A program made the translations under genes and the position numbers. Source: Halobacteriales archaeon QH_7_66_36 (GTDB lineage: Archaea > Halobacteriota > Halobacteria > Halobacteriales > Haloarculaceae). Taken from it: 64,000 nucleotides of DNA. Each line of letters starts with the position of its first letter. The stretch's first letter is position 1. Below, one piece after another: positions 10,142-40,490 of the stretch. The DNA lies in assembly GCA_003021175.1 (NCBI GenBank), contig PXQV01000014.1:1-64000 (forward strand). Direction: 5' to 3'. Under the pieces are notes generated by a model, which saw only the letters and a program-made list of their open reading frames with translations, did no database searches and was not told the origin of the DNA.

Positions 10142-10451
10142 GGCGGTGTTCAGATAATGGGTCGTCGCTCGACAGAGTGACTGCGATGGGTGGGACTGAA
10201 AGAGGCCGTCATCGGCGGCGAAGCCGCCGATTGCTCGGGAGAGCTTTGCTCTCCCGGTGGGCGCTCGATCCGGCCCCGGCGAAGTAAGCACCGCAGCAAC
10301 GCGAGGAGCGCAACGAGTCGCGGACAGCGGGTGGCGGAGCCACCTCGGGCCGTGCGAGCGGCCTACGGCCGCGAGCAGACGGTCGAGCGCCCGGGGGCTT
10401 TCTACACCTTGTCATCCTCTTAGTCGCCGGAATCGCTCTTATCTGAACCCC
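10142..10451 (+). repeat. Modular inverted-repeat element, copy A (direct cassette)
   Basis: 310 bp intergenic element. Terminal inverted repeats are exact over GTTCAGATAA (10148-10157) and TTATCTGAAC (10439-10448). Core motif GGGTGGGACTGAAAGAGGCC lies at about 10188-10207. Two hairpins follow directly (CGGCGGCGAAGCCGCCG and GGGAGAGCTTTGCTCTCCC, 10213-10256). Then come a GTAAGCACCGCAGC block and the hairpin cassette 10325-10380 with stems GGTGGCGGAGCCACC and GCGGCCTACGGCCGC. It closes with GGGGGCTTTCTACACC. Related copies lie at 18727, 35136 and 40193. No reading frame is convincing. It could be a MITE-like element, a structured RNA gene or both. Confidence 0.8.
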
Positions 10452-10503
10452 ACTTCGCAAACGGACGCCGCGTTTTTGTGCCGGCGCGGCGTGCGAGAGC
10501 GTA

Positions 10504-18726: not shown

Positions 18727-19016
18727 GTGCACGCGGCGGTGTTCGAACAAGCGGGTCGTCGAGCGACTGTGTAACCGCGGTGGGTGGGACTGAAAGGGGC
18801 CGGTCGCTCGACGACGCCCGCCGATGTAAGGACCGCACCGCGAGCGACGCGAGCGAGAGGACCACAGCGAGGTCTGCTCGCGGCCGGCGGCCGCTCGCAC
18901 GGCCCGTGGCGGCTCCGCCGCCACGCTGCGCGCGAGTCGAGCGGGCGGGGGCTTTCTACACCCTGTTGCTGGCTTCTACGGTTAAATCGACCTTATCTGA
19001 ACACGGCCGCGCGCAC
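18727..19016 (+). repeat. Modular inverted-repeat element, copy B (inverted cassette)
   Basis: 290 bp between the larC 5' end and the topA 3' end. Ends: GTGCACGCGGCGGTGTTCG at 18727 and the matching inverse TTATCTGAACACGGCCGCG at 18993-19016. Core GGGTGGGACTGAAAGGGGCC at 18782-18801, then GTAAGGACCGCACCGCGAGC (shared with copy D). The cassette 18872-18928 begins GTCTGCTCGCGGCCGG and is the reverse complement of the copy A cassette, while the flanks and the closing GGGGGCTTTCTACACC stay in the same orientation. The right end lies 7 bp from the topA stop codon. Confidence 0.8.
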
Positions 19017-34650: not shown

Positions 34651-35106
34651 ATGCTGACCGACTGGCGGGCGGTGGCTTCGGGGCTGGGGGCGGCGCTATT
34701 GTATCTCGCCGTCCTCGCGCTGTTTCCGGGCTTCGAGGGGGTGCGGTTCGCCGGCGTGCCGCTGGTGCTCGGGACGGGACTCGTCGCCGGTGCCGCCGCG
34801 GGCATCGCGGCCGACGACGGGCCTACGACCGGCGCGTGGCACGGCCTGCTGTCGGGATCGCTCGGCGGGGCGGCCTTCGCCGTTACGCTCGTGTACGTCT
34901 TCGCGGCGAACGAGCCGTACGGCGTCTTCTACGGGCTGAACTACGTCCTCGCGCTGTCGGCGGGCGACATCTCGGTGATCGCGACCCACGGCCGCACTGT
35001 CGTCGCTGGTCTCGCCGGCACCGGCTGGGTGCTCATCACCGTACTCGGCATCTACGCCGGCTACACCGCGCCGCAACGCGAAGGGCGAACGCTCATCGAG
35101 GAGTGA
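34651..35106 (+). CDS. DUF5518 membrane protein
   Basis: 151 residues from ATG 34651 (MLTDWRAVASGLGAALLYLA); a GTG two codons upstream is possible. Four hydrophobic helices: LGAALLYLAVLALFPGF, GVPLVLGTGLVAGAAAGIAA, SLGGAAFAVTLVYVFA and VVAGLAGTGWVLITVLGIY. This matches the haloarchaeal DUF5518 pattern with Gly-rich helix pairs. Function unknown. Followed immediately by repeat copy C. Confidence 0.72.
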   Translation: MLTDWRAVASGLGAALLYLAVLALFPGFEGVRFAGVPLVLGTGLVAGAAAGIAADDGPTTGAWHGLLSGSLGGAAFAVTLVYVFAANEPYGVFYGLNYVLALSAGDISVIATHGRTVVAGLAGTGWVLITVLGIYAGYTAPQREGRTLIEE

Positions 35107-35135: not shown

Positions 35136-35475
35136 CTCGGTGGGGTCCAGCTAAGCGGATCGTTGCTCAACTACGCAACTGCGGTGGGTGGGGCTGAAAG
35201 GGGCCGGTCGCTCGATCCAGCCCCGGCGTTCGGAAGACGCGCAGCGAGCCGCGGACAGCGAGGTGGCGGAGCCACCTCGGGCAGTCGGCGCGACGCGCCG
35301 ACGACAGCGTGGAGCGGCGCTCCACGGGCCGTGCGAGCAGCGAGGGACTATCGGTCCCTCGGGCCGTGTGAGCGGCGAAGCCGCGAACAGACGGCCACCG
35401 GCCGCGAGCAGACGGTTGAGCGACCGGTGTGTTGCCCTCCTAATCTCTGGAGCCACTATCAGCTGAACACTGGCG
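35136..35475 (+). repeat. Modular inverted-repeat element, copy C (expanded cassette)
   Basis: 340 bp. Ends GGTGGGGTCCAGCTAA (35139 on) and CTATCAGCTGAACACTGGCG (35456-35475) are imperfect inverted repeats. Core GGGTGGGGCTGAAAGGGGCC at 35184-35203. The cassette 35256-35413 is about 158 bp instead of 56 and holds six hairpins: GGTGGCGGAGCCACC, GTCGGCGCGACGCGCCGAC, GTGGAGCGGCGCTCCAC, GAGGGACTATCGGTCCCTC, GCGGCGAAGCCGC and CGGCCACCGGCCG. Linkers GACAGCG, GGGCCGTGCGAGC and GCGAGCAGACGGT are the same as in copy A. The element ends 1 bp before the asd stop codon. Confidence 0.78.
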
Positions 35476-35476
35476 T

Positions 35477-36508
35477 TCAGACCCAGCCTTCTTCGAGGAG
35501 GAGTTCGCCGTTCAGCACGGACGCGCCGGCCGCGCCGCGGATGGTGTTGTGCGAGAGACAGTTGTACTGGATGCCGTCGCTCGTGTCGCGGAAGCCGCCG
35601 GCACAGACCGCCATCCCGTTGCCGCGGTTGCGGTCGAGGCGGGGCTGTGGCCGTTCGGGGTCGTCGAACGTGTGGAGGAGTTGGTCGGGGGAGGACCGAA
35701 GCGCCGCGGAGGGGTACTCGTCCATCGCCTCGGCGGCACCATCGGGGGTGATCGGGTGGCTGGTGTCCGCCCAGACGTTTTCGAGGTGGCCGTCGATGGT
35801 CGGGATGCGGTTACACGAGGCGGCCACGTCCATGCCGTGCAGGGTGATCTCGGTCCCGTCGAAGTCGCCGAGTAGCTTCCGGGATTCGCGTTCCATCTTC
35901 GCCTCCTCGCCGCCGATGTGCGGGATGGCGTTGTCGATGATCTCCATCGAGGTGACGCCGGAGTAGCCCGCGCCCGACACCGCCTGCAGGGTCGAGACGC
36001 GGACCGCCTCCAAGTCCCACTCGTCGAGCGCGGCGAGCGTCGGCACCATCGTGATAGTCGAGCAGTTCGGGTTCTTCAGGAGCGCGCCGTCCCAGCCGCG
36101 CTCGTCGCGCTGGACCTCGAGGACGTTGACGTGGTCGGGATTCACCTCCGGGATGACGAGCGGCACGTCGTCGTCCATCCGCGCGTTCGAGGAGTTCGAC
36201 GAGACGACGTAGCCGGCCTCGGCGAGCGCCGGTTCGACCGCCGCGCCCACGTCGGACGGCAGCGAGGAGAACAGCAGGTCGACGTCGTTCGGGATTGCTT
36301 CCGGGTCCGTCTCGACGACTTCGATGTCGGTGACCGATTCCGGGATGGGGGAGTCGGCGCGCCACTTCGCCGCGTCGGCGTAGGTTCTGCCGGCCGAGGC
36401 CGGCGATGCGGTGAGCGTTGCGATGTCGAACTTGGGGTGTGGTTCGAGCAGTTGGATGAGTCGCTGCCCGACGGCACCCGTCGCGCCGAGAATTCCGATA
36501 CGTACCAT
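35477..36508 (-). CDS. asd: Aspartate-semialdehyde dehydrogenase
   Basis: 343 residues, MVRIGILGATGAVGQRLIQL (NADP-binding GATGAVG). Active-site Cys in LLKNPNCSTITMVPTLAALD. Other conserved blocks: SSLPSDVGAAVEPALAEAGY, SGAGYSGVTSMEIIDN and NAIPHIGGEEAKM. The archaeal/fungal-type ASADH reduces aspartyl phosphate in the Thr/Met/Lys pathway. Its 3' end touches repeat copy C. Likely transcribed alone. Confidence 0.95.
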   Translation of the reverse strand: MVRIGILGATGAVGQRLIQLLEPHPKFDIATLTASPASAGRTYADAAKWRADSPIPESVTDIEVVETDPEAIPNDVDLLFSSLPSDVGAAVEPALAEAGYVVSSNSSNARMDDDVPLVIPEVNPDHVNVLEVQRDERGWDGALLKNPNCSTITMVPTLAALDEWDLEAVRVSTLQAVSGAGYSGVTSMEIIDNAIPHIGGEEAKMERESRKLLGDFDGTEITLHGMDVAASCNRIPTIDGHLENVWADTSHPITPDGAAEAMDEYPSAALRSSPDQLLHTFDDPERPQPRLDRNRGNGMAVCAGGFRDTSDGIQYNCLSHNTIRGAAGASVLNGELLLEEGWV

Positions 36509-40192: not shown

Positions 40193-40420
40193 GCCGGCAC
40201 GGCGGTGTTTAGTGAAGCCGTGGAGTTGCCGTGAGAGGAGCGGCGAAGCGTTGGGAAGCCCCTGCACGCTCGACTCGATGGGCTCGCTGCGGTCCTCCCG
40301 CTCGCGGTGCTCGCGGTGCGGTCCTTACGTCGCCCGTCTTCGTCGAGCGCACAGCCCCTTCCAGTCCCACCCCGAGCGGTTCCTTCCCCAGCAATCGCGC
40401 AACTAAACACTCCTGCCGGC
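40193..40420 (-). repeat. Modular inverted-repeat element, copy D (no cassette)
   Basis: 228 bp, oriented opposite to the other copies. Ends GCCGGCACGGCGGTGTTTAGT (plus strand 40193-40213, 21 positions compared) and ACTAAACACTCCTGCCGGC (40402-40420) are inverted repeats. On the minus strand the core reads GGGGTGGGACTGGAAGGGGC (40353-40372), then GACGTAAGGACCGCACCGCG as in copy B. Where A, B and C hold the hairpin cassette, D has only AGCGAGCCCATCGAGTCGAG (plus-strand 40268-40289). It is the compact or empty form. Confidence 0.75.
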
Positions 40421-40490
40421 ACCGACGCTCCTGCTTGCTCCGCGGCGCGTGTGTCAAGCGATTTAAGCCGCCCGACCCCTCTCAGAGAGT

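Follow-up and report, generated by a model that had tools for sequence, protein, structure and literature searches.

Hairpin cassettes in a MITE-like element of haloarchaea and in frame within protein genes

How does a row of perfect hairpins come to stand in a short intergenic stretch of a haloarchaeal chromosome? The question is raised by positions 35256–35413 of a 64,000-nucleotide stretch of DNA (the window) on contig C9 of the 2.6-Mb genome of Halobacteriales archaeon QH_7_66_36 (G000). A preliminary description, made from the letters of the window, saw there six perfect hairpins with different stems, joined by constant, repeated linkers, in one of four related copies (A to D), and proposed stepwise gain of small palindromic units at one spot. 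All six hairpins are present: H6 (35259–35279, CGAGGTGGC(GGA)) with a 9-bp stem; H7 (35284–35302, GTCGGCGC(GAC)), H8 (35308–35326, CGTGGAGC(GGC)) and H9 (35341–35361, CGAGGGAC(TATCG)) with 8-bp stems; and two short ones of 5 bp, H10 (35372–35384, GCGGC(GAA)GCCGC) and H11 (35392–35404, CGGCC(ACC)GGCCG). The linkers recur as near-repeats (GGGCCGTGCGAGC and GGGCCGTGTGAGC; GCGAACAGACGGC and GCGAGCAGACGGT), but not as exact repeats, and a direct-repeat finder with long exact seeds returned no matches.

The window holds 15 unique hairpins (stem of at least 8 bp, loop of 3–5 nt), whereas 100 dinucleotide shuffles average 8.65; none of these shuffles matched the four strong hairpins found within 160 bp at copy C, and the largest cluster in any of them was three (2 of 100). 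Folding of 35199–35431 is likewise better than in shuffles (z = −4.4). The array lies within copy C, a degenerate MITE-like element on the plus strand (35139–35475; left end GGTGGGGTCCAG, right end CTGAACACTG) between the end of an ORF at 35106 and asd (35477–36508, minus strand). The left TIR of this copy has diverged and its target duplication is not clear; its conserved core motif, TGGGGCTGAAAGGGGCC, occupies 35189–35205 (plus strand), and the sequence behind the motif, GGTCGCTCGATCC, pairs with a 3′ arm, GGTTGAGCGACCGG, at 35414–35427 (plus strand).

The scaffold that carries such arrays is a transposable, MITE-like element. It ends in a 12-bp TIR, GGYRGTGTTCAG, and both ends were recognized in 49 copies from G000 and its sister genome G001. 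At the exact ends, 13 of the 49 are flanked by 8-mers identical at seven or more of eight positions (mean 0.34 and maximum 3 with shuffled partners, 500 shuffles). Copy D (40201–40414, minus strand), which has ends of the GTGTTTAG (sister) subfamily, is bordered by an 8/8 identical target duplication, GCCGGCAC, at 40193–40200 and 40415–40422 (plus strand). The corresponding locus in the sister is an empty site, so D is an insertion. Copy D lacks the cassette, as first described, and has the core. An 8-bp target duplication is a trait of the IS1595 family, and an IS1595-type transposase was considered as the mover; its domain (PF12762) is present in none of the four genomes searched. DDE_Tnp_1 (PF01609) genes number one in G000 and two in G001, none of them enclosed by a pair of element TIRs. 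A transposase bearing GGYRGTGTTCAG ends was thus found neither through PF12762 in the four genomes nor through PF01609 in G000 and G001.

Four fixed points of the core take palindromic cassettes, in a module order that is largely fixed, and the cassette content of the copies is a mosaic. Minimal copies (L056, L076, L077 and L102) consist of a bare or nearly bare core. Copy C has a cassette at the fourth point only. Copy A (10142–10454, plus strand) carries the smaller cassette that had been reported for it, with two hairpins at the same point (10330–10344 and 10358–10372) and two more elsewhere in the core (10211–10231 and 10236–10256). The fourth-point cassette occurs in both orientations, being inverted in L027, L040, L042, L066 and copy B (18735–19008, plus strand; hairpins 18880–18894 and 18905–18925). 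The insertion sites of A and B are occupied in the sister as well, by elements without cassettes, and the pairs L040/L110 and L049/L065 have common flanks and different hairpins. All of these pairs also differ in the adjacent part of the core, so that ectopic gene conversion can account for them; among scaffolds we saw no cassette cleanly inserted with its target left unaltered.

At copy C itself, the array is found in the same order at a second locus of the genome (L019, G000:C15:133625–133808), with about four base differences in some 150 outside one hairpin (~97% identity), which indicates that it was copied en bloc. The exceptional hairpin, H8, has been swapped whole and symmetrically in both arms, being CGTGGAGC(GGC) in C and CGTGGCGGC(GAC) in L019. 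Comparison with relatives did not find the same six hairpins in all of them: the locus in the sister has a different insert and no element to compare, and an element-like match between the flanking matches was not found in G002–G005. The sister insert (L060, G001:C35) is unrelated and contains a short lipoprotein-like ORF (MNRRQFLAGAGS...SGCIS). Stepwise gain at one spot, as originally proposed, therefore does not have its demonstration at copy C, where the array is block-copied, but the idea holds within the genus, in the cassette-free sister elements at A and B and, above all, at trpA.

Cassettes also lie inside protein genes outside the window, which provide the decisive evidence. Among 25 loci inspected for gene-borne cassettes we followed six (the rest being intergenic, in scaffolds or ambiguous), and these six genes, from three genomes, have in-frame cassettes with linkers and hairpins that are the same as, or close to, those of the scaffold. 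They are trpA (L032, G000:C10:58100–59100), with a hairpin-encoded in-frame insert of ~50 residues; an SDR gene (L055) and a ChlI-like gene (L054), also in G000; menB (ECH/MenB, L155) and a gene with a lactamase fold (L158, narrowly under the Pfam cut-off), both outside G000; and a histidine kinase (HATPase, L169, G025:C1:1571100–1571750). The orientation and frame of the insert (AGC GNG ...) are identical in all six, and it is read as a peptide of the form S-[VE]-x-R-S-x-[TS]-G... that leaves the host protein open. Pfam domains run on both sides of the insert or up to it (TrpA, SDR, ChlI, ECH/MenB, lactamase-like and HATPase), the TrpA domain scoring 269.6 bits in two stretches. There is no scaffold sequence around the gene inserts, and we argue from this that cassettes travel without the scaffold. 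In the kinase, a tandem hairpin array (NSVEHGSTSSRTESGD repeated) sits exactly at the N-box of the ATPase domain; the hairpin units may have a reservoir, or their origin, in haloarchaeal kinases.

The trpA gene records stepwise gain of hairpins. The site has no hairpin in four species, where the protein reads ...IYQYG(D/N)E-xGPxPFV..., one in the sister and four in G000. The single hairpin of the sister has the stem GAGCCGC and the loop AAG, and the first of the four in G000 has the same stem with the loop GGG. The SDR insert is missing from the three relatives read (a fourth, L314, was left out); for the ChlI insert, no ortholog at E ≤ 1 × 10−20 was found in the genus for a comparison of states before and after.

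Stems and loops of these hairpins change in very different ways. In module H1 (51 copies), divergence is 3–4% in the arms, a lower bound as the arms were allowed up to two mismatches and the linker three spellings, against 46% in the loops. Stems stay perfect across copies while the 3-nt loops vary and flip orientation. The earlier statement that stems differ while linkers remain constant thus applies from one position to the next within an array; across copies of one module it is the stems that are conserved and the loops that vary. Reverse-complement loop pairs in a fixed context exceed the expectation from position frequencies in the four modules for which we give figures (H1, 82 against 15.5; H3, 33 against 3.1; H7, 18 against 5.1; H4, 38 against 25.4), the H6 and H8 rows representing the same hairpins. 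GNA or TNC loops close 101 of the 148 hairpins here, and 60 of 124 hairpins at core-motif loci of public collections, where shuffles give 27 of 215. Those loci (at least 111) contain 24 arrays with a minimum of two hairpins, and shuffles contain none. GNA loops with a G–C closing pair form extraordinarily stable DNA mini-hairpins, according to the accessible part of PMC4686876. Within cassette stems, GT (26) and AC (27) pairs give no strand preference, in totals that contain duplicates (the H6 and H8 patterns overlap, H7 caught reversed H1, and H2 and H11 returned none).

The core behaves differently from the cassettes. Its constant parts (5′ GAAAG-GGG-CC and 3′ GG-GGG-CTTTC), as read from the motif, stand in register with three G–G mismatches. 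The 11-bp helix that adjoins them varies in sequence: the 172 copies have 80 distinct 8-nt arms between them, and 79% of its cells are Watson–Crick against 51% with shuffled partners. In the 141 of 172 copies that form the helix (at least six Watson–Crick pairs of 11; in some of the others cassette H1 breaks the helix), 1381 of 1551 cells are Watson–Crick, and GT pairs outnumber AC pairs by 69 to 16 (p = 5 × 10−9). This excess points to a pairing constraint on one strand, either as RNA or as single-stranded DNA. The three consecutive G–G mismatches recur in the core helix of many genera (for example, L127, L130, L136 and L146), and might allow G-quadruplex pairing between copies in high-potassium cells.

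The family is abundant and patchily distributed. A 541-bp full-copy query matches 102 places in G000 and 84 in the sister, several of which can belong to one element, and G000 contains the core motif TGGGACTGAAAGGGGCCG (up to one mismatch) 98 times. Because contigs C1, C8, C9, C13 and C17 of this genome end inside or beside the repeat family, copy counts are approximate. The motif is present in 49 of 117 sampled Halobacteriales genomes, often in dozens of copies, and a reversed control pattern has no occurrence in the 117. Public collections contain at least 111 core-motif loci; among the matches listed, the named genera include Haloarcula, Halorussus, Haladaptatus, Halobaculum, Halopiger, Halosimplex and Halolamina, and 4 of 80 come from bacteria (chance or contamination). 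Haloarchaea in these collections also have a second type of cassette with the same triloop design, GTT[CGAGACGGC..]TCATC[..GAAAATC(..)GATTTTC..] (L216, L276, L293, L296 and L302).

We suggest that two selfish layers are nested here, a MITE-like scaffold and hairpin cassettes akin to Rickettsia palindromic elements (RPEs) that also invade genes, and give this reading a probability of roughly 0.55. The first layer would be a non-autonomous scaffold, defined by its 12-bp TIR and 8-bp target duplication, that a transposase moves in trans, with a core constrained to fold as a single strand. In the second, units made of a perfect 8–10-bp palindrome, a 3-nt loop and a constant linker would enter fixed points of the core and, separately, permissive positions of protein genes. 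From the shared linkers we infer that single units are mobile. They would be copied from locus to locus, probably via an extruded hairpin, as the exceptional stability of C(GNA)G triloops in DNA suggests, and templating from arm to arm at the hairpin could keep stems perfect and flip loops. Against this reading count the negative searches for a transposase with these TIRs and the want of a clean cassette insertion among scaffolds; nor do we know of an enzyme for the cassettes. Only tentatively would we go on to propose that recognition is of shape and not of sequence. Small palindromes with stable C(GNA)G-type triloops would then enter the MITE scaffold, and the reading frames of housekeeping genes, by being copied in the form of single-stranded hairpins, with perfect stems and flipped loops as by-products of that copying.

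Gene conversion among copies is the main rival, and accounts for what is seen in the scaffolds, though not in the genes. If recombination were the whole story, scaffold copies would swap segments, and cassettes would be old parts of the element, lost or shuffled and immobile alone. Dozens of copies per genome provide ample donors for this, and the mosaic copies, the orthologous elements in which core and cassette both differ and the array that copy C has in common with L019 all fit; the cassettes with like linkers in trpA, SDR, ChlI and menB, with no scaffold around them, and the difference in trpA unit number from the sister do not, and we consider recombination on its own rather unlikely. 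The scaffold and its hairpins might instead be a structured RNA under selection, with stems kept by compensatory mutation, as the covarying outer helix of the core and the fold of copy C would suggest. However, cassette stems are without strand preference, loops flip freely and single-stranded DNA would explain the excess of wobble pairs in the core equally. With Rfam 15 at gathering score there were no matches in nine loci, and the best score in the window was 17.7 bits when 42 are needed; we judge this account improbable.

Slightly less probable still is that the units are immobile, palindromes being generated and made perfect in place by template-switching during replication of GC-rich repeats. 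Intra-strand switching of that kind produces perfect stems and flipped loops, and also a symmetrical change such as that of H8. It may still serve in the upkeep of the hairpins, but when it acts at a hairpin it cannot give rise to the non-palindromic linkers GGCCGTGCGAGC and GAACAGACGG, which recur in unrelated genes and in scaffolds. An artefact of assembling a short-read genome with dispersed repeats would be in keeping with the several G000 contigs that end in or beside the repeat and with N runs in L024, L106 and L110. The trpA gene is nevertheless intact and has one match in its own genome, which makes repeat misassembly unlikely there, and hairpin arrays are also found in single-long-contig chromosomes (G018, G025 and G006) and in named complete genomes; an artefact is thus extremely improbable.

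The two-layer reading has its closest parallel in RPEs, which are palindromic, present in many copies and inserted in frame in unrelated metabolic genes and elsewhere, with protein function tolerated (PMC10969869, in the part available). Palindromic inserts in one common frame within protein genes are found here too, but RPEs are ~150-bp elements of Rickettsia, whereas the archaeal units are small (8–10-bp stems, triloops), form arrays and occupy fixed points within a MITE as well. The units appear to work like RPEs but are not assigned to that group, host and size being different. Among haloarchaea, the available part of PMC3119063 describes the MITE, PATE and SMR-A repeats of Haloquadratum walsbyi, which range in size from ~110 bp to a few hundred and have no transposase gene, together with strain-specific insertions and nested insertions into palindromes, those of IS605 and PATE in the case of SMR-A. 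Compared by description, these share with our element the haloarchaeal host, small size and want of a transposase gene; SMR-A has no target duplication, in contrast to the 8 bp seen here, and palindromic cassette arrays and in-frame gene inserts are not described in that part of the report. Enterobacterial RU/ERIC are small MITE-like repeats that occur inside genes and carry reading frames (PMC2759123, in the part available). They resemble our element as MITE-like repeats within genes and differ from it in sequence. To our knowledge, RU/ERIC have no modular triloop arrays. Pneumococcal BOX and REP/BIME arrays are likewise mosaics, in which the number of short stem-loop modules varies, but are extragenic; REP depends on RAYT transposases, and we know of no report of loop flipping in BOX or REP/BIME.

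Searching the text of an open-access library, we found no description of such haloarchaeal elements, and a search there with the core motif brought up only apparently unrelated papers; the nearest, from the parts of the sources available, are the Haloquadratum SMR, PATE and MITE repeats (PMC3119063) and the RPEs (PMC10969869). Peptide inserts born of hairpins are possible in haloarchaeal proteins, as in TrpA and a histidine kinase, and call for caution. The haloarchaeal arrays offer a natural record in which palindromes stay perfect and loops change. Rickettsia is the main source of what is known about palindromic selfish elements inserted in frame; one enzyme gene with zero, one and four units within a single genus is a handle on their mode of spread, and a haloarchaeal counterpart would allow this to be tested in organisms with good genetics.
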